From Exiguobacterium sp. s124 (GTDB taxonomy: Bacteria > Bacillota > Bacilli > Exiguobacteriales > Exiguobacteriaceae), in the NCBI RefSeq assembly GCF_018617485.1, contig NZ_JACSKH010000001.1, positions 372,001-436,000 on the forward strand: a stretch of DNA of 64,000 nucleotides. The letters are read 5' to 3'. The position numbers were made by a program, and so were the translations under genes. Shown piece by piece: positions 50,650 through 63,236 of the stretch. Within the stretch, counting starts at the first letter, position 1. Each line of letters begins with the position of its first letter. Under the pieces are notes generated by a model. That model was given only the letters and a program-made list of their open reading frames with translations. It searched no databases and had not been told where the DNA came from.

Positions 50650-52026
50650 TTATGGTGTGAAGATGATTCGGATGGTCGTCCCTTGTCCTTGACTACTTTC
50701 TACCTTGACCTTCCCACCATGTGCTTCGATGATATCCCGTGAAATCGCCATTCCGAGACCACTCCCACGAGCATCATCCGTGTTCGTTCCCCGATAATAG
50801 CGTTCGAATATATACGGCAATTCGGATTCGGCGATCCCGTTCCCATCATCCTGGATGGTCACGACGTCTTCATCGACCCGAACCGTCACGATGACCGATT
50901 CATCATTATGAAGGAGGGCGTTATATAGGAAGTTGAGCAGGGCGCGTTTCATAAAGTGACGATCGAGTGATACGGTCGCCGCCTCTGTTGCTTCGAATTC
51001 GATGTGGCGATCGCTGAACCGTGGGTCGTTCAACACGTCAATGATGACTTCTCGAACGAATGGCTCGAGGCGTGTCTCTTCTAAAGTAAGCGGGAAGTCG
51101 CCGTGCTGCAGTCGCATCGTCAAGTTGAAATCGTCGAGCAATTCTTTCATATACTTGGCTTGGCGCTCGATCACGTGTACATATTGGTTACGATCCGCTT
51201 CGTCCAACGAATCGTCATCCAACAACTCGGCGTATCCTTGGATCGAGGCAAGCGGTGTCTTCAAATCATGGGACACGTTACTCATCCATTCTTTCCGTCG
51301 ATCATCGAGTTCTTCGCGTTGTCGTTCGTACGTCGTGAGTGTCTCGGAGACCGCATTCAAGTCATGGAAGACAGGACGATAGATGCCGACACGCTTCGGT
51401 TCAGATCGAGAGAAATCTCGTCTCTTCAATTGTTGGATTCGCTCCGTCAATCGATAGACAGGGCGGGTCAATCTAGAACTGAACAAGAGACCGATCAATG
51501 CGGCAACGAGCAAATCGACGACGAGGATCCATAGAAACGCCTTCGACATATAGGAAAGGACCGCCTGTTCATCTAACATGAAGAGCACCCGGCGTTCACT
51601 CGCCTCTGGCACACCGATTAGATAACTGTAGGATTCATATTCTCCAATGAAATAGAGTCGAAGCTCGTCATCCATATATTTATAGATTTGAATCAGTTCA
51701 ATCGGCGAATAGGCATCCGGTAGTCCGCTCGGTGCATCGACTTCACTCACGACCCGGCCCATTTCATCTAAAAAGCGGATGAACGCCCCATACTGCTCGA
51801 GCGCCTCCTGACCTGCTGTTGAGACGACGGGTTCTCCATCTTCAAGTGATAAGTACGTGCTGAAGTTACGGGTAAAGGTTTCCCCAGAGTTGCTTTCCAC
51901 ATCGTCGAGTCCTGTTCGGTCATTGATGAGAAGTCCAAATAGAATGGCGATGTTCAGAAAGACGACAATGGCGACAATCAATACAATCGACAATAAATAG
52001 CGACCGGTCAGTTTCCATTTCATCAT
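50650..52026 (-). CDS. yxdK: sensor histidine kinase, YxdK position
   Basis: A 458-residue membrane kinase: helices at about 10-33 and 162-183 enclose a 130-residue extracytoplasmic sensor, followed by HAMP (about 184-235), HisKA with H253 (SNVSHDLKTP) and HATPase (NALLHND, DDGNGI, GSGLGMA). The large external domain differs from the tiny one of BceS-type kinases, although the neighbouring ABC transporter is Bce-like. It overlaps nothing; the regulator gene lies 9 bases upstream. AAGGAG precedes the start. Confidence 0.88.
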   Translation of the reverse strand: MMKWKLTGRYLLSIVLIVAIVVFLNIAILFGLLINDRTGLDDVESNSGETFTRNFSTYLSLEDGEPVVSTAGQEALEQYGAFIRFLDEMGRVVSEVDAPSGLPDAYSPIELIQIYKYMDDELRLYFIGEYESYSYLIGVPEASERRVLFMLDEQAVLSYMSKAFLWILVVDLLVAALIGLLFSSRLTRPVYRLTERIQQLKRRDFSRSEPKRVGIYRPVFHDLNAVSETLTTYERQREELDDRRKEWMSNVSHDLKTPLASIQGYAELLDDDSLDEADRNQYVHVIERQAKYMKELLDDFNLTMRLQHGDFPLTLEETRLEPFVREVIIDVLNDPRFSDRHIEFEATEAATVSLDRHFMKRALLNFLYNALLHNDESVIVTVRVDEDVVTIQDDGNGIAESELPYIFERYYRGTNTDDARGSGLGMAISRDIIEAHGGKVKVESSQGQGTTIRIIFTP

Positions 52027-52035
52027 AAACGCTCC

Positions 52036-52725
52036 TTATACCGTCAACCGGTAACCGAGACCTTTGACCGTCTTGATATAGGTCGGGGCAGAAGGATTCG
52101 GCTCGATTTTTTCTCGCAAACGCCGGATATGGACCATGACCGTGTTATCCGAACCAAAGAATGATTCGCCCCATACTTGGGTGAATAATGTCTCTTTGCT
52201 GAGAATCCGATTCGGATTTCGTAAAAAGCAGGCGAGGAGACCGACTTCCTTCGCCGTCAATTCCAATCGCTCTCCGTTCACATATACTTCTGTCTCATCT
52301 TCATTCATTTGGAACGGTCCGATGGTCGTCGTCTCGGGCATCGGTGCTTCCATCATCGATACTCGACGAAGTTGCGCTTTGACGCGGAAAGCGACTTCTT
52401 TTGGACTGAACGGCTTCGTGATGTAGTCATCCCCGCCAATAGCAAGACCGAGCAATTTATCGACCTCTTCCGATTTGGCAGATAGAAAGAGAATGGGGAT
52501 ATTCGAGTGCGCTCGCATCTGTTGGCAGAGTTGATAGCCTTCTCCGTCCGGTAGCATGACGTCCAAAATGGCCAAATGTGGGTGGAACGTCTCGAACACG
52601 TCAAACCCTTCCTTCAACGTGTGGGCAGTTCGAATCTCTTTAAATCCCTCTTTCTCAAGTGCACGTTGAATCAACGTACACAAGTCTTGTTCATCATCCA
52701 CGATGAGAATCCGTGGTTGTTCCAT
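52036..52725 (-). CDS. yxdJ: OmpR-family response regulator, YxdJ-like
   Basis: A 229-residue DNA-binding regulator: receiver domain with DD (10-11), phospho-Asp D55 (LAILDVMLPD) and K near 105, then a winged-helix domain (LTAKEVGLLACFLRNPN, GSDNTVMVHIRRLREKI). I start at 52725, 8 bases after GGGAGGTG, rather than two codons upstream. It is the first gene of the kinase operon and diverges from the ABC genes it probably controls through the TGTAAGG repeats. Confidence 0.9.
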   Translation of the reverse strand: MEQPRILIVDDEQDLCTLIQRALEKEGFKEIRTAHTLKEGFDVFETFHPHLAILDVMLPDGEGYQLCQQMRAHSNIPILFLSAKSEEVDKLLGLAIGGDDYITKPFSPKEVAFRVKAQLRRVSMMEAPMPETTTIGPFQMNEDETEVYVNGERLELTAKEVGLLACFLRNPNRILSKETLFTQVWGESFFGSDNTVMVHIRRLREKIEPNPSAPTYIKTVKGLGYRLTV

Positions 52726-52753
52726 CGTCATCACCTCCCTCATAAGGATATCA

Positions 52754-52812
52754 TGTAAGGATTTTGTAAGGTACGCGTGAGTTGAAGTTAAGACAGGGGG
52801 CGTAATGTAAGG
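52754..52812. promoter_or_regulatory. TGTAAGG direct repeats, probable response-regulator site
   Basis: TGTAAGG occurs at 52754-52760 and 52765-52771, exactly 11 bp apart (one helix turn), and again at 52806-52812. Tandem repeats on one helix face are the usual target of OmpR-type dimers. They lie in the 107-base divergent region between the regulator and the ABC genes. Confidence 0.6.
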
Positions 52813-52832
52813 GACAGAAAGAGGTGCTGAAC

Positions 52833-53594
52833 ATGGAAACTTTATTACAAGTGAAATCGATTCAAAAGACATATGGAAAAGGAAATACGACGTTTCGGGC
52901 GCTCGATGACGTCTCGTTCACAATCGAACACGGTGAATTCGTCGGAATCATGGGACCATCCGGGGCCGGGAAGTCGACGTTACTGAACGTCCTCGCGACA
53001 ATCGATACGCCAACGTCCGGTGAGATTTTAGTCGAGGAGGACGACATCGCGTCGATGGATGAGGAGGCGCTCGCCGATTTTCGTCGCGACCATCTCGGCT
53101 TCATCTTCCAGGACTATAACTTGCTCGACTCATTGACGGTACGGGAAAACATATTGCTCCCGCTCGCCGTCTCGAAGACACCGGTCCATGAGACACGGGA
53201 GAAAGTCGAACGGTTGGCGAAGCGGTTTGGGCTTGAAGGAATTCTTAACCAATATCCGTACCAAATCTCAGGAGGGCAGAAACAACGGACAGCTGTTTGT
53301 CGTGCCTTGATTTCGGACCCAAAACTCATCTTCGCCGATGAACCGACCGGCGCGCTCGACTCGAAGTCAGCGACGGACTTGTTGGATACGCTCGCACGGT
53401 TGAACGAGGCCGAGACGACGATCATGATGGTGACGCATGACGCCTTCGCGGCAAGCTTCTGTCGCCGAGTCCTCTATATTCAGGACGGACGTTTGAATAA
53501 AGAACTCATTCGGGGCAACGCCTCGCGGGATGCGTTCTATCAATCGATTCTCGAGGAACTGGCGAAAGGCGGTGCGGTCGATGACGCTATTTGA
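52833..53594 (+). CDS. yxdL: ABC transporter ATPase, BceA/YxdL-like
   Basis: A 253-residue ATPase of the antimicrobial-peptide/cell-wall-stress class. Walker A is GPSGAGKST, the Q-loop is FQDYNLLD, the signature is ISGGQKQR and Walker B is LIFADEP, with H-loop VTHD. AAAGAGGTG precedes ATG 52833. It overlaps the permease gene by 14 bases. By analogy with BceAB/YxdLM it works in peptide sensing or detoxification. Confidence 0.92.
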   Translation: METLLQVKSIQKTYGKGNTTFRALDDVSFTIEHGEFVGIMGPSGAGKSTLLNVLATIDTPTSGEILVEEDDIASMDEEALADFRRDHLGFIFQDYNLLDSLTVRENILLPLAVSKTPVHETREKVERLAKRFGLEGILNQYPYQISGGQKQRTAVCRALISDPKLIFADEPTGALDSKSATDLLDTLARLNEAETTIMMVTHDAFAASFCRRVLYIQDGRLNKELIRGNASRDAFYQSILEELAKGGAVDDAI

Positions 53595-55413
53595 ACTTGC
53601 GAAGAAGAACGTCGCGCGTAATTTATCGCGATATGCGCTCTACGTCGGGACGACCATTTTCTCGATTGTCATTTATTTCACGTTCGCTACGCTCAAACAT
53701 AGTCATGAGATTAGCGCGCTCGCGGAGACATCGAAAAAGATTAGCGGACTGATGAGTACGTCGACGTTCATTCTGATGCTGTTCGTTGCGCTCTTCATCG
53801 CCTATTCGAATGCCTTCTTTTTGAGAGGGCGTAAGCGGGAGGTCGGGCTCTACTCGCTACTCGGGGTCCGGAAGAAACAAATCGGCCTGCTGCTCTTGTT
53901 TGAGAACATCGTCATCGGAGCCGTGTCCTTGGTCGTCGGGATCATCTTGGGGCTATTCGGGTCGAATGCGCTGTTACAGCTGTTGCTGCGTTTGATGGAC
54001 AGTAACTTAGACATCGGCTTCGCCTTTTCAGGGTCGGCATTCATCGAGACGTTCCTCGTCTTTCTCGTGATCTTCCTTTTTACTTCATTTCAAGGGTACC
54101 GGGTCATTTATCGCTTTAAGTTGATTGACTTGTTCCATGCGGACAAGAGCGGAGAAGGTGTCCCAACGGCGAAAGGCTGGGTCGCTTTCGTAGGCGTCCT
54201 GACGATTGGTGTGGCGTATTGGCTCGCGCTCCAGGATTTGATGACGTCCTCCCTTTGGAGAACGCTCGGCCTCGCGATGCCGCTTCTCATCATCGGATTG
54301 AGCGTCATCGGTTCGGCGCTCCTCTTCCATAGTGTGTTGATTTTTGCGCTGACGTGGCTGAAAAAGAATGAGCGTTGGTCGTGGAAGCGTCTCAACCTGT
54401 TGACGACATCGCAACTCCTTTATCGCATCCGCGGGAACGCCAAGACGCTCACGTTGATTAGTATCATCAGTGCGACGGCGATCACAGCGGGTGGTGCCAT
54501 CTTCAGTGTGTATTATTATGCGGAAGAGAATGTGTCCTCGTATACACCGTATACGTACGCCTGGAAAGATGAGGCGGTCGAGGTGGAGGGTGCTACATTT
54601 GAATCAAGCGTTGAACAGAAGACGATTCGAATGGAAGCAGAATATGGGGAGCGCGAACTCGGGGTCATCGATGCATCGACGTATCGTCATCTTCTCAAAG
54701 GTCTCGGTCAGGGAGAACCAGAACCGTTCCCACAGGACGAGGTGCTATCGGTCGATCCGTTCTATGACGAGCGTTATTCCGAAGAAATCGAATCGGTCGA
54801 GCTTTCAGGTGATACGTTTGATGTTTCGACCCGGGTCGAAGCATCTCCACTCAACGTCATGACGTTTGGTGGAACGTTCCTTGTCGTCGCAGACGATGTG
54901 TTCAAGACGATGCCCGAGCCGAGCGAGAGGTATCACGTCGCACTCACGGAATCATTCAAAGATCAGCGCGATCAGTCTGACCGTCTATCAGAACTTGGGC
55001 TCGATTCATTCTCGAGTGCACCGGACGTATATGAAGAGACGATGGCGATGAACGGGGCACTCCTCTTCGTAGGAACATTCCTCGGTCTCGTCTTCCTTGT
55101 CGCGACAGGCAGCGTCATCTACTTCAAGACGATGACGGAAGCGGAGGATGACCGGGCGAAGTATGCGATTTTACAGAAAATCGGGATATCTGATCGAGAC
55201 GTGCGACGTACAGTCCGTCAACAGATTGTCGTCGTCTTTCTTGCGCCGTTCGCACTTGGGATTTTGCACGCGACGGTCGCACTCATTGCCTTTTCAAACT
55301 TGTTGAATATGAATTTCACGGTGCCTGTTCTCGTGTGGATGGGTGTCTATACCGCAATCTATGCGGTTTATTACGGAGTAACGGTTCGTCGTTTTATGAC
55401 GGCGATTCGATAA
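53581..55413 (+). CDS. yxdM: ABC transporter permease, BceB/YxdM-like
   Basis: A 610-residue FtsX-type permease with about ten helices. A large external domain of roughly 200 residues lies between helices 7 and 8 (about residues 320-490), the mark of BceB-type proteins that handle antimicrobial peptides. ATG 53581 lies within the end of the ATPase gene, with AAAGGCGG upstream. Its peptide ligand is not predictable. Confidence 0.9.
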   Translation: MTLFELAKKNVARNLSRYALYVGTTIFSIVIYFTFATLKHSHEISALAETSKKISGLMSTSTFILMLFVALFIAYSNAFFLRGRKREVGLYSLLGVRKKQIGLLLLFENIVIGAVSLVVGIILGLFGSNALLQLLLRLMDSNLDIGFAFSGSAFIETFLVFLVIFLFTSFQGYRVIYRFKLIDLFHADKSGEGVPTAKGWVAFVGVLTIGVAYWLALQDLMTSSLWRTLGLAMPLLIIGLSVIGSALLFHSVLIFALTWLKKNERWSWKRLNLLTTSQLLYRIRGNAKTLTLISIISATAITAGGAIFSVYYYAEENVSSYTPYTYAWKDEAVEVEGATFESSVEQKTIRMEAEYGERELGVIDASTYRHLLKGLGQGEPEPFPQDEVLSVDPFYDERYSEEIESVELSGDTFDVSTRVEASPLNVMTFGGTFLVVADDVFKTMPEPSERYHVALTESFKDQRDQSDRLSELGLDSFSSAPDVYEETMAMNGALLFVGTFLGLVFLVATGSVIYFKTMTEAEDDRAKYAILQKIGISDRDVRRTVRQQIVVVFLAPFALGILHATVALIAFSNLLNMNFTVPVLVWMGVYTAIYAVYYGVTVRRFMTAIR

Positions 55414-55426
55414 GGAGCGAAAACAT

Positions 55427-55768
55427 ATGAAGAAATGGATTGGAATAGCAGTTCTTGGCATTCTGCTCGCCGCAGGTTTGCTGCAAGTGGATTGGAATCG
55501 ATTTGGGAAAGACACCTTGTTTGTGGAAGTTCAAGAGGCGAGCGATGTGGAAGAGACGACGCTTGAAAATGGTGAGGTGATGAAACGATACGTGTACGCG
55601 CAAACCGCATTCACGTCAGACGGTGAGTCGAAGCAAGTCACGTTTACCGCAGGAAAAGAACTTCAAGAAGGCGCGTACTTGCGCTTATACGTCAAAGACG
55701 GGGACACCGTCACATCGTATGACGAGGTGTCCCGTGAGGACATCCCGCGCCAAGTCATTCAAAAATAA
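55427..55768 (+). CDS. yxeA: YxeA-like exported small protein
   Basis: A 113-residue protein with an N-terminal signal or anchor (4-20) and a short exported domain with the YxeA pattern (KRYVYAQTAF, KQVTFTAGKEL, AYLRLYVKDG, SYDEV). In B. subtilis yxeA follows yxdLM, which supports the assignment. The role is unknown. AAGGAGCG precedes ATG 55427. Confidence 0.82.
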   Translation: MKKWIGIAVLGILLAAGLLQVDWNRFGKDTLFVEVQEASDVEETTLENGEVMKRYVYAQTAFTSDGESKQVTFTAGKELQEGAYLRLYVKDGDTVTSYDEVSREDIPRQVIQK

Positions 55769-55819: not shown

Positions 55820-56263
55820 TCAGACGACAGGAGCTTCGTTAGTGTTCAGTTCGAGTTGTAGTATGTACGTCAATTCAAGATGCGCCAATTCCGAGAAATT
55901 TGTTTTTTTGACATGTGTCCGTGGACGCAATCCGCATTCTAATGCGATGTCGACAATGGTACGAATCTGATTTTCCGTATAGAATCGCTTCCGGCCGAAC
56001 GTGAATGGGGTAGGTGGCAACACGCCATCTGTCTCCCATTTGATCAACTGTTGTTGGCTGCGCGGAATGCCGGCCACACTGAAGGCGCGGCTCAATTCTT
56101 TGAGCGGATAGACAATCAAGTGTTGCTCTTTATACGAGATTGGTTTTCCTTGTTCCGGTCGGTATGTATCCCATTCGGTGGCTGAAAACGTCAGGTCGGC
56201 CTGGTCGAAGTCGTGTTGAGCGGAAGGAATAGAAGTAGTACGTGCGAGGTCTAGGCTGTTCAT
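55820..56263 (-). CDS. MerR-like winged-helix DNA-binding protein
   Basis: A 147-residue soluble protein. Residues 60-125 form a MerR-like helix-turn-helix (GIPRSQQQLIKWETDGVLPP, then GRKRFYTENQIRTI); the N- and C-terminal parts match no family that I know. I start at 56263, 7 bases after GAAGGAG; an upstream TTG frame is unlikely. It diverges from the small-protein operon, and two copies of a dyad-containing motif lie between them, so it may regulate that operon and itself. Confidence 0.65.
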   Translation of the reverse strand: MNSLDLARTTSIPSAQHDFDQADLTFSATEWDTYRPEQGKPISYKEQHLIVYPLKELSRAFSVAGIPRSQQQLIKWETDGVLPPTPFTFGRKRFYTENQIRTIVDIALECGLRPRTHVKKTNFSELAHLELTYILQLELNTNEAPVV

Positions 56264-56377
56264 ATGATGGATCTCCTTCTTCAAGACTGACTGGTCATTT
56301 CAAAATGTCTTCTTACGTATCGTACCCCATTTACAAGATTTTAACTTACAGTTTTTTCAAAGTGGGGAAATGATTCA

Positions 56378-56392
56378 TGGGACTTTTGTCGT
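56378..56392 (+). repeat. 15-bp motif, copy 1, in divergent region
   Basis: TGGGACTTTTGTCGT occurs here and, identically, at 56494-56508. The core GAC-TTTT-GTC is an inverted repeat. The divergent gap (56264-56581, 318 bases) is A/T-rich and otherwise holds no gene. A 14/17 match also lies near 43100. Confidence 0.65.
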
Positions 56393-56493
56393 AATTTTGA
56401 ACGATGTCTGTCGAACATTAAGATACCCTAATTGGTATCAAAACTCAAGTATAGCAGTAAAAATTTGAAAAATGATTAAAAATTCAGACAATC

Positions 56494-56508
56494 TGGGACT
56501 TTTGTCGT
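56494..56508 (+). repeat. 15-bp motif, copy 2, before the small-protein operon
   Basis: Identical to the copy at 56378-56392, 116 bases away, and 74 bases before the first ATG of the operon. It could be an operator for the MerR-like protein or the -35 element of a dedicated sigma factor. Confidence 0.65.
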
Positions 56509-56581
56509 TAAGGTGCTCTAAAAAATAGATTGAGCATATTCATCCGATGAACGGTTAATAAGGGCGAAGGAGGTGAGACAG

Positions 56582-56791
56582 ATGGCAACTTATGAAGAAG
56601 TGGCGACGATGTTTTATTTAGACACACGCCGACTCGTGGATGGGAAAGAGAAGAAACAGCTCGTCCGATACGGACCGCTCGGCAGTCAGATGGATGAGAC
56701 GTTGATGCGGCAGTTCGGAGATTTACTGGCGGCACTCATCGATGTCGAATCCGTCAATTACGTCGTAGCCCAAGAATTCATCGTGTATTAA
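56582..56791 (+). CDS. small protein, DUF1659-like (69 residues)
   Basis: A 69-residue soluble protein resembling the fourth member of the operon (57028): both have a basic stretch, R-[FY]-G-P, then a D-x(4)-[MV]-x(2)-F-G-x-L-L helix and a short beta end. The match to DUF1659 is weak and from memory. AAGGAGGTG lies 6 bases before the ATG, a very strong site. First gene of the operon. Confidence 0.72.
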   Translation: MATYEEVATMFYLDTRRLVDGKEKKQLVRYGPLGSQMDETLMRQFGDLLAALIDVESVNYVVAQEFIVY

Positions 56792-56803
56792 CACGGAGGA
56801 CTT

Positions 56804-56863
56804 ATGCAGAACCTCACTCGTATCGGCACCGACATTCGGCAGGATGAGCGGGTGGTCACATGA
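56804..56863 (+). CDS. 19-residue micro-ORF coupled to yvrJ
   Basis: An open frame of 19 codons with ACGGAGGA 5 bases before its ATG. Its TGA overlaps the next ATG as ATGA. The product begins MQNLTRIGTD and is hydrophilic. It may be a true peptide or a device to load ribosomes on yvrJ, which lacks a good ribosome site. Confidence 0.5.
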   Translation: MQNLTRIGTDIRQDERVVT

Positions 56864-57000
56864 GTTGGCCCGAACTCATCTCGAATCTCGGGTTCCCGAT
56901 CGTCGTTTCGCTCTATTTGCTTCATCGAATTGAGACGAAGCTCGATCGGATGATCCAGCTCCTCGAGCGAATGGATGATTCGACCTTATCAGAAACCTAA
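56860..57000 (+). CDS. yvrJ: YvrJ-family membrane peptide (46 residues)
   Basis: A 46-residue peptide with one membrane helix (NLGFPIVVSLYLLHRI) and an amphipathic charged tail (ETKLDRMIQLLERM), the exact layout of the YvrJ family. It begins in the overlap with the micro-ORF. In B. subtilis yvrJ belongs to the SigO/RsoA regulon; no such sigma gene is in this window. Function unknown. Confidence 0.8.
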   Translation: MSWPELISNLGFPIVVSLYLLHRIETKLDRMIQLLERMDDSTLSET

Positions 57001-57027
57001 TCCCTCATTGAAAGGAGCCATCCCCCT

Positions 57028-57240
57028 ATGGCTGTCTTAACGGAAAAGAAAGCAACACTCGTCTTGACGACACACCACGATCTTGAAACGGCAAAACCAA
57101 CGAAAAAAGCACAACGGTTCGGTCCAGTTCGTGCCGATCTAACAGCCGACGTAGTGAACACGTTCGGTCGTCTCTTAATCGATTTAGTGATTCAAGAAGA
57201 CGCAGACCTCGGTATCATCCGCGAATACGATTTAGTCTAA
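57028..57240 (+). CDS. small protein, DUF1659-like (70 residues)
   Basis: A 70-residue soluble protein related to the 56582 product by pattern (KKAQRFGPVRADLTADVV, FGRLLIDLV). AAAGGAG precedes the ATG. It probably arose by duplication with that gene; the intervening YvrJ gene separates them. Function unknown. Confidence 0.75.
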   Translation: MAVLTEKKATLVLTTHHDLETAKPTKKAQRFGPVRADLTADVVNTFGRLLIDLVIQEDADLGIIREYDLV

Positions 57241-57266
57241 CCCATACCCTAAGGAGGAAATAAACC

Positions 57267-57479
57267 ATGACTGACACAAAACTTGAAATCTCATTTTTAG
57301 ATGCATTCCATAAAGTCGTTCGCTTCCGTTTGAACAACGTGAAACAACCAGTCGACGCTCAAAAAATCGAAGCTTTGGCTGACTTCATGGTCGCCAACGA
57401 CCCACTTGCGAAAAACGTGATGGAATGGACGGAAATCAAAATGATCGAAGGCACACAGACCGTATTGAGTGCGAAATAA
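57267..57479 (+). CDS. DUF2922-like small protein (70 residues)
   Basis: A 70-residue protein. LEISFLDAFHKVVRFRLNNVKQPVD...IEALADFMVAND follows the DUF2922 pattern (a beta pair, N-x-K-x-P, then a helix). DUF2922, DUF1659 and YvrJ genes are, from memory, often neighbours in Bacillales. AAGGAGGAAA precedes the ATG. Last gene of the operon. Confidence 0.78.
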   Translation: MTDTKLEISFLDAFHKVVRFRLNNVKQPVDAQKIEALADFMVANDPLAKNVMEWTEIKMIEGTQTVLSAK

Positions 57480-57487
57480 TTGAACGG

Positions 57488-57521
57488 AAGGTGACTCTTG
57501 CATTTCGGAGTCACCTTTTTT
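57488..57521 (+). terminator. terminator of the small-protein operon
   Basis: The 10-bp stem AAGGTGACTC / GAGTCACCTT is followed by TTTT. Confidence 0.92.
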
Positions 57522-57604
57522 AAGTTTGGTCAATCCCCTTCACTATTTTCAGAAAATTGTCGATAGTATAGGAAACACTGCATGATTGAGAGGGGAATAC
57601 ATAG

Positions 57605-59449
57605 ATGACTTGGAAATCAATCTGGTCTAAGACACTCCGTCGAATCAAACGAAAACCGACATGGACGTGGAAACCGACACTCAAACGAAAGCATAGAGAG
57701 AAGCGTGAACGCACGACATCTTTCAAGACAGGGATTGGGAAGAACTTGACGATTCGTCAAAAATTGTGGGGACTCGTCATCATATCACTTGTCATGGTCA
57801 TTGGCGTTGGTGGGTACGCGTTGTTCTCATTAAATGATGCAAATCGACAGGCGGACGATATCGTCAACAACTGGAATAAGGGGCTTGATTATGCCCACGA
57901 ACTCAATACGCTCGCAGCGAACTATCGGACGCTCGAACTCGATCACATCGTTTCAGATGATGCGACGCAAAAAGAAGAACTGATGACGCAGATGAAAGAG
58001 ATTCGAGATGAAATCAATACGATTGCACCGAAGTACGCAAAAACGGCGACAGGTGAGACGGATAAAGAACTTTTCGAAAACTTCTCACGCCAATGGGAGA
58101 TGTATCAACGTGTCTCGGACAACATGTTGACGTTCAGCTCGACAGGAAATACTGGCATGGCACGTTCGTACTATGATGCCCAGTCACAAGCAACGTATGA
58201 TAACTTCACACAAAAATTAGCAAACCTTGTCGACTATAACTCAGAAGGTTCGCAGCGCGTCGGGCAAGACATGGAGCGCGAATTCATGCAGTCGCTCATG
58301 GCGCTCGTGGCTGTGACGGTCGGTGCCGTGGCAATCCTGTTATTCCTTGGACTCAGCTTGCTACGGTCGATTATCCGACCGATGCGTACGCTTCAGACTC
58401 GCTTCGATGAGCTCGCGACACAAGGCGGGGATTTGACGATGACGATTCCGGTGACGTCGAACGATGAAATCGCACAAGTGAGTCGCTCGTTCAATACGTT
58501 CCTCGGTACGCTCCGTGAGATCATGATTGATGTCGATGAGACGGCGAAGGTCGTCCTGTCATCTTCAAAAGAGGTTTCTGCAGAGGTAACACGTCTTAGT
58601 CACTATATGGAAGAGACATCTGGAACGGTCGAAGAATTGACGGCCGGCATGGAAGAAACGGCAGCATCTTCGCAAGAGATGAGCGCCTCGACGACCGAGA
58701 TGGGTAGCTCGATTGATTCAATCGTCGACCTATCTAATGACAGCGCCGAAACGGCGACGCGTGTCGAGATGCGAGCTCACGAGATGCGTGAACAGGCCGT
58801 CGTCTCGAAGACGGAGGCCGTGACGATTATTGAGAAGAAACAAGTTGAACTCGCAGAAGCGATCAAGGGAGCACAGTCTGTCGAAGAGATTCGCGTCTTG
58901 ACGACGGCCATTCTCGCCATCGCCGATCAGACGAACTTGCTCGCGTTGAACGCATCGATCGAAGCGGCACGAGCGGGTGAAGCCGGTCGCGGTTTCGCGG
59001 TCGTCGCTTCTGAGATTCGCAAACTTGCAGAAAACTCACGTCAGACGGTGAACGAGATTCGTGACGTATCGAACACGGTCATCGATTCGGTCGAACGCCT
59101 CAACACGAGCTCGGCTGATATGTTGACGTTCTTGAATACGAAAGTCATGGCCGACTACGATCGTCTCGAAGAGTCCGCGACACAATATGAACAGGACGCA
59201 ACGGTGTTCGGGGAGACAGCGAAGACGTTTGAAGGGAATGCGCTTCAACTCCGACATATGACGGACAATATTCTTGGTGTCATCCAAGAAGTGGCGACGA
59301 CCGTGACAGAAGGTGCGGACGGAACGCAGTCGATTTCGGAGAAAGTTCAACTTTCCGTCGAACGCTTCAATGATGTCCAGACGAAGATGAGTGAAACGGA
59401 AAAACGCGCGACTGAACTATCGAATCGAGTCGCTCAATTCAAACTATAA
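57605..59449 (+). CDS. methyl-accepting chemotaxis protein with a basic N-terminal extension
   Basis: A 614-residue chemoreceptor: helices at about 54-76 and 233-255 flank a four-helix-bundle sensor, then HAMP and a signalling domain with the hairpin tip [36 protein letters not shown]. Before the first helix stand about 50 residues that are very rich in Lys, Arg and Trp ([18 protein letters not shown]), unusual for this family. No later start has a ribosome site, so the extension seems real. No C-terminal CheR-binding pentapeptide. Own terminator. Confidence 0.9.
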
Positions 59450-59459
59450 GCAGTGATTG

Positions 59460-59487
59460 GAACCAGGCATACGTCTGGTTCTTTTTT
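59460..59487 (+). terminator. terminator after the first chemoreceptor
   Basis: The stem GAACCAG / CTGGTTC is followed by TTTTTT. Confidence 0.85.
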
Positions 59488-59617
59488 ATGTTTATTTGAA
59501 AAAATCGAAAGATAGGTCAATGCGTTCATTAATTTCAAATTGTTGGTACAAATTAGGCTGTCATGTCCGATATAAAATAGGCAGTACCAAACATAGAGAG
59601 AAAAAGAGGTGGAAGAG

Positions 59618-59640
59618 GAGAAGTCTCCTCGTAAGTCGTG
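59618..59640 (+). promoter_or_regulatory. ribosome-site hairpin before the second chemoreceptor
   Basis: GAGGAG-AAGT-CTCCTC is a perfect 6-bp hairpin (7 bp if the loop is tightened) in which the only AGGAG near the GTG start is paired. It could reduce or condition translation. The Shine-Dalgarno to start distance is also long (about 17 bases), unless the hairpin brings them together. Confidence 0.45.
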
Positions 59641-61344
59641 AAAACAGTATTTAACAAGTGGACGTTGTCCAAAAAAATTATGGGAAGTATCGGATTACTC
59701 CTCATTTTGACGTTCGTCGGGATGGGATATAATTTATGGACGCTTGAACGCATGACGAGTCAGTATGAACAGATGATCTCAAACGATGTCATGAAAATGA
59801 AAGCAGCAGATGACTTGGCGCTCGGAATGGTTCGCCAAGCATATGGGGTCCGTGGGTATGTGTTGGTGCAGGATGATGAACGCAAACAACAAATCATCCA
59901 AGGTGGAGAAGAAAAGAAGGCAGCCATCGAATCATTGATTGAACTGGCTGACAATGAATCTGAACGAAACGAGTACGAAGCATTACTTGAATATGCGACG
60001 GGGTACGATGCGCTCGCGACACAGGCGATCACGGCCATCGATCAAAATGATCAAGAGGCGATCGATCGCTTGACGCTCCGTCTCATGCCAGACGTCACGA
60101 AGTCGATTTCGTCGACAGGGGAGGCGCTTCAAGCCGAGACCGAGAAGGACATGTTGGGGATGCAAACCGAACTTAAACAGGCGGGCGAGCGTGCATTCTT
60201 GTATTCAGTCGTCATCGCCATCGTGAGCGTTGTATTGATGCTCGGGGCAGGATATGCCATCAGTCGGATGGTGACGGCACCGTTACGCTTTTTAGCGAAA
60301 GAAGTGGACGTGGTCGCGGAAGGTGATTTGACACGCGCCGACCTTGAAGCACTCACGCAAGATGAAATCGGACAATTGATGACAGGCTTCAACCGGATGA
60401 AAGGGAACTTGCGCGAACTCATTGACCGCGTCACACAAAACGCACAAGAAATTACAGCTCAATCCGAAGAACTGTATGCGAGTACAGAAGAGATGGCGTC
60501 GCAAACTGAAGAGACGACACGTCTCATCGACCGCGTTGTGGAAGAGACGGTCGCACAAGCGAAAGAAGCGAATGGCTCGGCCCGCGCCGTAGCAGCTGCC
60601 GACGAAGGAATCGGTCAAATCGCAGGCTCGATCGTCTCGATTGATGATGATGTGTCCCAAAGTTTGAAGCTCGCCGAAGAAGGTGGATCGACGATGACTC
60701 AGGCAAAAGACGAAGTACGTGCACTTGAGCGGGAGACACGTCTCACCGGTGAGTCGATTTCGGCCTTGAAACAACAGTCTGACGAGATCGCTCTCATCAC
60801 AGAGGTCATCCAATCCATCACCGACCAGACGAACTTGTTAGCGTTGAACGCGGCGATCGAAGCCGCACGTGCCGGAGAGCAAGGAAAAGGCTTTGCCGTG
60901 GTCGCAGAAGAGGTACGTAAACTCGCGGAGCAATCGAAGCAGTCGGCGACACAAATCGCCGGGCTCATCGAGTCGATTCAAGCGCAGTCGAATGCCGTTC
61001 TCGACCAACACGTCGTCAGTGCGAAACGCGTCGAGACGAATTCACAGTTACTCGAACGAGCGACGCGTGCGTTTGAACAGATTGTCCGTCAACTCGAGAC
61101 GTCGGTCGATAACACGTCACACATCCGAATCGCGTCAAACGAGATTGCAGAGACGACGAAGCAAGTCGCCACATCTTCTCTTCAAATGTCACGAGACAGT
61201 GAAAAGATGGCTGAAACGATGCGGTCAGTCGGAGAGACGGCTGATTCACAACTGGCGATGATTCAAGAACTGAACGGCGTCGCCGAGTCACTCGGGAATA
61301 TGACGAGCGACTTACAGACGTTGATTGGAAGATTCACCACGTAA
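59638..61344 (+). CDS. methyl-accepting chemotaxis protein
   Basis: A 568-residue chemoreceptor: helix (10-32), a small four-helix-bundle (4HB/CHASE3-like) sensor, helix (about 188-208), HAMP and a signalling domain with the tip [37 protein letters not shown]. The start is GTG 59638; no in-frame ATG comes before the first helix. It is closely related to the next gene over the whole length, including the ARGYV/VRGYV sensor segment and the GRFTT end, so the two form a tandem duplication. Confidence 0.9.
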
Positions 61345-61352
61345 GCAAATGG

Positions 61353-61383
61353 GGGTCATGGAAACCAAATCATGACCCTTTTT
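61353..61383 (+). terminator. terminator after the second chemoreceptor
   Basis: The stem GGGTCATG / CATGACCC with a 10-base loop is followed by TTTTTG. Confidence 0.88.
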
Positions 61384-61526
61384 GTGAACATCATATGAAA
61401 GCACTTACATTTTTTCATAGGAAATTTCTTCTTGTTGATACAAGTTTGATTTGTGCAACCGATATATCTATTGTATAAATCCTTTTATCTAACAGAATCG
61501 AGGTGAAATGAGGAGAAATCCTTGCT

Positions 61527-63236
61527 ATGTTTATGAAAAAATTGAAGCAATTATCATTGACCAAAAAACTATTTGGGGGCATCATTGCCATTCTTCTCGT
61601 CATCGCATGTGGGATGGGCTATGCCATCTTCAACATGGAACGTCTGACGAGTGAGTATGAACATGTGATCAAACAAGATGTGAGTAAGATGTTGACAGCC
61701 GATCAACTTTCGCGCGAAATGATGCGTCAAGCGTATGGGGCACGTGGATATGTCATGTCACCTCAGCCGGATCGATTAGACCAAATCGAACAAGGAAAAG
61801 TAGGCAAGAAGGAGGCCATCATTGAACTTCTTTCGCTTGCGGAAACGCAGGAAGAAATCGACGAGATGAATACGTTGTTATCTTATGCGATTGGTTATGA
61901 TGACTTGACCGTCCAACTCGTTGATGCCGTCGATGCAAACGAAACGGAGACGATTGAGCGTCTGACGACAAAGATCATGCCAGACATGACGGCTGCGATT
62001 ACGACAAAAGGTGAATCGATTCAGGCGAAGGCGGAACAGACGATGCAACAGAGCCAACTTGAGCTCACCAAGCTAAGTGAGCGATCGAATTATTATATGA
62101 TTGGAATCTCGTTGTTGACGTTCCTCTTAGCTCTCTTGGCTGGAGTCATCTTGCAGAGAATCGTCACACGTCCATTACGTGAATTATCATATGAGGTCGG
62201 TATTGTCGCAAACGGTGATTTAACACGCGAAAATTCGAAAGCGCTTTCGAATGATGAGATTGGCCAATTAATTACCGGGTTCAACCAGATGAAGACGAAT
62301 TTGCGTGAGTTGATTGATGAAGTGAGTCGGAATGCACAAGACATTACGGCTCAATCGGAAGAATTGTACGCGAGTACTGAAGAAATGTCTTCTCAAACAG
62401 AAGAAACGACGAGACGAATCGACCAAGTCGTTCAACAGACAATTCAACAAGCGCGACAGGCGACGCAAAGCGGACATGAAGTGGCGGCGGCGAACCTTGG
62501 TGTGGAGCGGATTGCCACTTCGATTGGCACCATCAACGATGATGTGGAAAAGAGTCTCGAGCTGGCGGAACGAGGAGAACAATCAATCCGACAAGCAAAA
62601 GACGAAGTACTCGCATTAGAAAAAGAGACCGTAGCGACGGGAGAATCCATCACCGTCCTAAAACAGCAATCGGATGAAATTGCCTTGATCACAGAAGTCA
62701 TTCAATCAATCACGGACCAGACGAACTTGTTGGCATTGAATGCGGCCATCGAAGCGGCACGAGCGGGCGAGCATGGAAAGGGATTTGCCGTGGTCGCGGA
62801 AGAGGTGCGTAAACTCGCTGAGCAATCGAAACAGTCCGCAATGAAAATCGCTGGGTTAATCGAATCGATTCAAGTGCAATCGAATGCTGTCTTAGACCGA
62901 CATGCGTCAAGCGCGAAGCGGGTAGAGACAAACACGATTTTGTTAGAAGAAGCGACGTCATCCTTCCGACAAATTGTCACCCAACTCCAAACATCTGCGG
63001 AGAACGCAGCACACATCCGTGTCGCGTCAAATGAAATCACTGAGACGACGCGACAAGTTGCCACAACGACTGCATCGATGGCATCCGGAAGTGAAGAGAC
63101 GGCGAATACGATGCGTGAAGTCGGAGAGACGGCTGACGTACAACTCGCCATGATTCAGGAACTGAATGGCGTTGCGGAAACACTTGGCAGTATGACCGGT
63201 GATTTACAGACGTTGATTGGAAGATTCACAACATGA
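61527..63236 (+). CDS. methyl-accepting chemotaxis protein (paralogue of the previous)
   Basis: A 569-residue chemoreceptor of the same plan as the gene at 59638: N-terminal helix, sensor with [12 protein letters not shown], second helix (about 190-212), HAMP, and the tip [27 protein letters not shown]. The C termini (IQELNGVAE...[10 protein letters not shown]) are nearly identical, whereas the sensor halves have diverged, suggesting different ligands. GAGGAG is 11 bases before ATG 61527; ATG 61533 is an alternative. Confidence 0.9.

Follow-up and report, generated by a model that had tools for sequence, protein, structure and literature searches.

A clade-specific MerR-like regulator divergent from a small-protein operon in Exiguobacterium, a possible holin-like module

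The window, the whole 64,000-nucleotide stretch of Exiguobacterium sp. s124 analysed here, carries a plus-strand operon of small proteins that diverges, across a 318-bp intergenic region, from a minus-strand gene for a 147-residue MerR-like protein. On sequence grounds we tentatively propose that the locus is a small, locally controlled holin-like membrane-permeabilising module with a clade-specific MerR-like regulator, a reading to which we give only slightly less than an even chance. The regulator and the four operon genes (gene 1–YvrJ–DUF1659–DUF2922), divergent from each other, keep this order in 19/19 genomes grouped as the genus of the window (also called Exiguobacterium clade II), which bears out the conserved neighbourhood that the first-pass annotation proposed to search for. 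A profile search found the regulator in 0/379 other Bacilli genomes, 19 sister-genus genomes included, and its relatives are all Exiguobacterium (aestuarii, profundum, algae, chiriqhucha, alkaliphilum, aurantiacum and others). Regulator and DUF1659/YvrJ/DUF2922 operon thus form a pair that is fixed in one clade and, as had been suspected, appears undescribed: a literature search found no account of it. Calling the locus a candidate new system went too far, as the operon itself is a variant, with changed gene order, of a cassette that occurs across Bacilli, and only the regulator and the control region are lineage-specific. The coding features and the terminator are as follows.

55820–56263, minus strand: MerR-like DNA-binding regulator, 147 aa (MerR_1 profile, structural model, 19/19 clade genomes)
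56582–56791, plus strand: gene 1, 69 aa, a divergent DUF1659-type paralogue of gene 4 (hhalign against the gene-4 alignment, E 5e-8, probability 94.8)
56804–56863, plus strand: 19-codon minigene with its own Shine–Dalgarno site; its stop overlaps the YvrJ start (ATGA)
56860–57000, plus strand: YvrJ, 46 aa (PF12841, E 9.1e-15, 54.4 bits against a cut-off of 29.5)
57028–57240, plus strand: gene 4, DUF1659 family, 70 aa (hhalign against 20 DUF1659 sequences of other Bacilli, E 1.3e-9, probability 96)
57267–57479, plus strand: gene 5, DUF2922, 70 aa (PF11148, E 4.3e-9, 36.6 bits against a cut-off of 25.5)
57486–57525, plus strand: putative intrinsic terminator closing the operon, a 13-bp stem followed by a T-run (consensus match only)

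The boundary at 56264 is correct because the regulator starts with an ATG at 56263, preceded by a AGAAGGAGA ribosome site, and the divergent arrangement described earlier stands. Of the five frames annotated, those of 69, 46, 70 and 70 residues were confirmed in place; the 19-codon frame is open in 19/19 genomes (18–19 codons) but shows no constraint at the peptide level. Because its changes have no third-position bias (366/450/433 by codon position), it looks more like a minigene for translational coupling than like a conserved peptide. Very strong ribosome sites had been reported for the frames; this minigene has a Shine–Dalgarno sequence, and YvrJ has no strong site of its own. The minigene would couple translation into YvrJ. 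We envisage transcription of the operon from one promoter just before gene 1 to the terminator past DUF2922.

The family assignments differ in strength. Gene 4 scores 18.5 bits against PF07872, below the Pfam cut-off of 24.1. Gene 1 has no Pfam match and reaches E 0.038 in hhalign against DUF1659 of other Bacilli, its link to the family running only through gene 4; the first-pass annotation did not mention this paralogy. The DUF2922 protein has a predicted beta-beta-alpha-beta-beta fold (pLDDT 91), and common ancestry of DUF1659 and DUF2922 is suggestive only (hhalign probability 48). No sequence relatives of DUF1659 or DUF2922 were found in the PDB, and candidate fold relatives of DUF2922 were rejected as background (best PDB E 0.35, viral E 0.011, VIA Z ≤5.2 for the phage antitoxin Dmd). 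A phage origin was likewise discarded, as searches of viral contigs and phage genomes gave no relative of DUF2922.

YvrJ is almost invariant across the 19 genomes and consists of one hydrophobic segment and a charged amphipathic tail. The window protein matches phrog_4898 (lysis, holin) at E 1.5e-4, a family matched by YvrJ from eight sources, with seven YvrJ proteins between E 1e-2 and 5.6e-8; a hydrophobic stretch this short can match by composition. No Pfam holin family was reported for the window YvrJ at E 1. YvrJ may be a holin-like membrane protein. It would form the membrane part of the module, and we suppose that the two DUF1659-type proteins and DUF2922 are small beta-rich cytosolic proteins that act as its partners, brakes or adaptors.

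The operon is one form of a cassette that is common in Bacilli yet almost unstudied. DUF2922 occurs in 237/398 Bacilli genomes, usually as DUF1659–DUF2922–YvrJ with variable neighbours, and the cassette is nearly missing from the literature, in agreement with the earlier statement that these families have no established function. The window operon shares with it the three families (PF07872, PF11148 and PF12841) in one operon, a very short leader with a GRAAGGAGGTGA ribosome site and a noncanonical promoter. It differs in its order (DUF1659 paralogue–minigene–YvrJ–DUF1659–DUF2922), in the extra DUF1659 paralogue and in the divergent MerR-like regulator, and no sigma, ComK or hydrolase gene adjoins it.

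Elsewhere, certain genes recur beside the cassette. We compared 74 loci, whose fractions are not population estimates because the loci are best-scoring or hand-picked, with four plasmid loci added, rather than a random sample. A sigma-70-like gene lies directly upstream on the same strand in 14/74 and a ComK-like gene upstream in 6/74, with the order comK–sigma–cassette in three; wall hydrolases lie downstream in six of the 74 (M15 twice, Amidase_3, GH25 twice and, in Aerococcus, CHAP). The Aerococcus order is sigma–DUF1659–DUF2922–coiled-coil protein–phage holin (phrog_881, E 3.5e-23)–CHAP protein. Downstream neighbours are otherwise mostly unrelated (SCO1, dehydrogenases). On plasmids of Geobacillus and Peribacillus (loci L093 and L095), a ComK homologue, DUF1659–DUF2922–YvrJ, a wall hydrolase and a site-specific integrase stand in a row. 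Downstream of the cassette at another locus (L029) we noted, by eye, a globin-like methyl-accepting chemotaxis protein.

In clostridia, UviA/UviB/amidase and toxin loci combine a sigma factor, a small holin and an endolysin, and the holin is linked to the release of cytosolic proteins (PMC9527704). In other genomes the cassette repeatedly comes with a small single-segment membrane protein, a dedicated sigma factor and a wall hydrolase. Because this combination recalls UviA–UviB–amidase, we think that the cassette most likely serves permeabilisation or release in the manner of a holin, the DUF proteins being partners. The analogy has limits: YvrJ gave no match to the BhlA/UviB Pfam family, DUF1659 and DUF2922 have no counterpart in the clostridial loci, and the window has neither exported cargo nor hydrolase. 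Against the proposed locally controlled holin-like module also stand the lack of an adjoining hydrolase or sigma gene in the window, the want of a convincing fold relative for DUF2922, the divergence of the control-region repeat in sub-clade 2 (below) and an operon promoter without the spacer and dyad of classical MerR targets. The links to dedicated sigma factors, to ComK, to wall hydrolases and, once, to a true phage holin suggest a concrete, testable function for the cassette.

The main rival sees in the cassette an output of competence (K-state) or stress that has nothing to do with permeabilisation, such as a small YvrJ-anchored envelope complex decorated by the DUF proteins; the sigma and ComK links would reflect that programme. 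We regard this as possible without being probable. In several families comK and sigma genes share an operon with the cassette, which agrees with it, as do the two ComK paralogues of the window genome, the mostly non-lytic neighbours and the near-universal presence of the operon in non-lysogenic chromosomes. However, ComK boxes are not enriched upstream of 71 cassettes (24 against 16.7 in shuffles, one mismatch allowed), the window intergenic region has a single one-mismatch box (AAAA-N5-TTTT), and the hydrolase and phage-holin links are left unexplained. Returning to permeabilisation, the broadest form of the idea is that more than half of Bacilli carry, in DUF1659–DUF2922–YvrJ, a chromosomal module for holin-type permeabilisation or non-lytic release, with DUF1659 and DUF2922 as a cytosolic gate or cargo adaptor and with a controller swapped by lineage (split sigma, single sigma, ComK or, here, a MerR-like protein with its own operators); in that generality we think it rather unlikely.

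In our reading, the window operon is a holin-like module that has been domesticated, with sigma or ComK control replaced or supplemented by the MerR-like regulator. Cassettes of most Bacilli have a putative noncanonical promoter of their own and often adjoin a gene for a dedicated sigma factor or ComK, sometimes also one for a wall hydrolase of endolysin type. The divergent MerR-like protein would take over this control, or add to it, in Exiguobacterium clade II. With a regulator of its own and candidate operators mapped, the Exiguobacterium locus is a compact and genetically simple form of the cassette, and switching its expression on could show the role of the module.

A link to the split sigma factor SigO–RsoA had been suggested, and part of it holds. 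SigO–RsoA transcribes yvrJ in Bacillus subtilis (PMC8103513), and the window YvrJ gene is likewise under what appears to be dedicated local control. Sigma genes adjoin YvrJ and DUF1659–DUF2922 cassettes elsewhere, and in a sister-genus strain (G028, locus L056, 1232–2267) a sigma region-4 gene, YvrJ and an HTH_16 gene stand in a row, a cluster that resembles the SigO–RsoA pair. This cluster lies beside an S8-type peptidase (by eye), and its arrangement looks like SigO–YvrJ–RsoA. Near the window operon, however, there is no split sigma gene, and the B. subtilis set lacks DUF1659 and DUF2922. A query with the linked type of sigma factor found no close relative in the window genome (best E 0.013).

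The regulator has a helix-turn-helix at residues ~52–110, nearly invariant across the clade, a C-terminal helix at 123–140 and a variable N-terminal tail of ~50 residues; no effector domain was seen. MerR_1 matches 8/8 members of the family weakly (best E 4.6e-4), the window protein at E 0.008 and 16.7 bits, under the cut-off of 21.6, and no sequence relatives were found in the PDB. In the AlphaFold model (mean pLDDT 69, N-terminal tail disordered), residues 47–140 best resemble the CarA N-terminal domain (Z 4.8, r.m.s.d. 3.2 over 76 residues), followed among MerR-type chains by CvkR (Z 4.0), RacA (3.8) and BmrR (3.5), all low Z scores. The recurring MerR-type chains agree with the profile; we call the protein MerR-like, and not a classical MerR activator. 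It resembles MerR-type regulators without an effector domain (CarA N-domain, RacA, CvkR and HiNmlR) in its winged helix-turn-helix and short C-terminal helix, and differs from them in its weak sequence match and 50-residue N-terminal tail. Classical activation is not claimed, because the putative operon promoter (GAGCAT-17-TTAATA) has neither the 19–20-bp spacer nor the internal operator dyad typical of MerR activator targets. The elements of the control region are listed below.

56322–56346, minus strand: putative regulator promoter, AGTTAA (56341–56346) and GGGTAC (56322–56327), strongly conserved in the 19-genome alignment
56325–56367, unstranded: inverted repeat CCCCATTTnCAAG (56325–56337) / TTTCAAAGTGGGG (56355–56367), overlapping the regulator's putative promoter; candidate autoregulatory operator
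56378–56392, plus strand: distal direct-repeat copy TGGGACTTTTGTCGT, exact; RGGACTWTnG kept in 18/19 genomes; ~70 bp upstream of the regulator's inferred start
56422–56439, unstranded: imperfect dyad GATACCCTAATTGGTATC between the two repeat copies, left half nearly invariant in the 19-genome alignment
56494–56508, plus strand: proximal direct-repeat copy TGGGACTTTTGTCGT, exact; GTC kept in 18/19 genomes; ~66 bp upstream of the operon's inferred start
56532–56560, plus strand: putative operon promoter GAGCAT–17 bp–TTAATA; GAGCA in 19/19 genomes, with the invariant leader GGGCGAAGGAGGTGA directly after

The motif that the first-pass annotation had seen twice is indeed present as two exact copies 116 bp apart. 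A 15-nucleotide repeat arose in 0/5000 dinucleotide shuffles of the 318-bp intergenic region, and no further exact copy of the 13-nucleotide core exists in the 2.8-Mb genome, where its three one-mismatch matches all fall within or at the ends of coding frames. Across the 19 genomes, the copies share the consensus RGGWCTWTWGnC at a spacing of 114–116. The GAC-TTTT-GTC inverted core claimed for the motif did not survive comparison: the distal-copy GTC occurs in the window species only (1/19), and sub-clade 2 has GGTC or GTTC at the proximal copy. What relatives keep is thus the direct repeat, in weak form in sub-clade 2, and not the GAC/GTC symmetry. A wider regulon was sought and dismissed, with one further IUPAC match genome-wide, between the 3′ ends of two convergent frames.

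We ranked profile pairs of 13-bp windows (72,024 pairs) in the intergenic alignment of the 19 genomes. The direct-repeat pair ranks first in all 19, third without the window species and sixth without its nearest relative as well; it ranks first in five sister species (window species and nearest relative left out) and 73rd in sub-clade 2, where the copies differ by several bases. From the last two ranks we conclude that the repeat is old in sub-clade 1 and has decayed or been retuned in sub-clade 2. Perfect identity confined to the window species, together with the divergence in sub-clade 2, could be taken to mean recent local conversion or chance convergence without function. That explanation is very unlikely in view of the shuffles, of the first rank in the five sister species and of conservation at both repeat sites above that of their flanks.

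The inverted repeat at 56325–56367, which the first-pass annotation did not list, ranks second of 72,024 in all 19 genomes and first both without the window species and in sub-clade 2, and is at or near the top in every genome set except sub-clade 1 alone. As an operator for a MerR-type dimer it is at least as good a candidate as the direct repeat, if not a better one, and both remain candidates. The regulator would most likely repress or tune its own gene through the inverted repeat and control the operon through the direct repeats, which lie about 66–70 bp upstream of the two transcription starts, at ~-66 for the operon and ~-70 for the regulator by arithmetic on inferred starts. Alternatively, another factor may bind the direct repeats, or these may belong to tandem promoters, while the action of the MerR-like protein is limited to its own promoter, through the inverted repeat, or to other sites in the genome; we see this as a serious possibility, somewhat short of an even balance. 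In its favour, MerR-type proteins bind dyads, and of the symmetrical elements the inverted repeat is better conserved, the direct repeat not having kept its dyad; the regulator may also have further targets. Against it, the direct repeat is restricted to this intergenic region and occurs only together with the regulator, and the sister genus has neither.

GAGCAT-17-TTAATA, ahead of the invariant leader, is the probable operon promoter. In the sister genus, which in this comparison has DUF1659–DUF2922 only, adjoining a potassium-channel-like gene (identified by eye), the counterpart is CGAACAA-17-TCAATAAGGGCGAAGGAGGTGA (TCAATA) with the same leader as in the window operon. In other Bacilli, TGTCC-N-TATATA precedes GTGAAAGGAGGTG in 18/71 regions upstream of cassettes, against 0.4 in shuffles. 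A sigma-70 promoter scan found one site, fewer than in shuffles. The putative regulator promoter, AGTTAA-12-GGGTAC, is by eye what we take to be a SigB-like sequence. No leader RNA element was detected in Rfam at E 1.

Palindromes (ACCGGCCGG(T), TGACCGGTCAC or ATCCCGGGAT) lie upstream of DUF1659 at six other loci (L050, L053, L099, L100, L105 and L118), with a TATATA-like box or the sigma gene on one side and the ribosome site on the other; they could be operators or 5′ hairpins, and 5/6 of these loci carry or adjoin a linked sigma gene. Just upstream of the locus, at 50650–55768, the window encodes a sensor kinase, a response regulator, an ABC ATPase, an FtsX permease and a YxeA-family gene, in what looks like a Bce/Yxd-type antimicrobial-peptide module. 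After the operon, at 57605–63236, come three genes for methyl-accepting chemotaxis proteins in succession, of which the first was checked.
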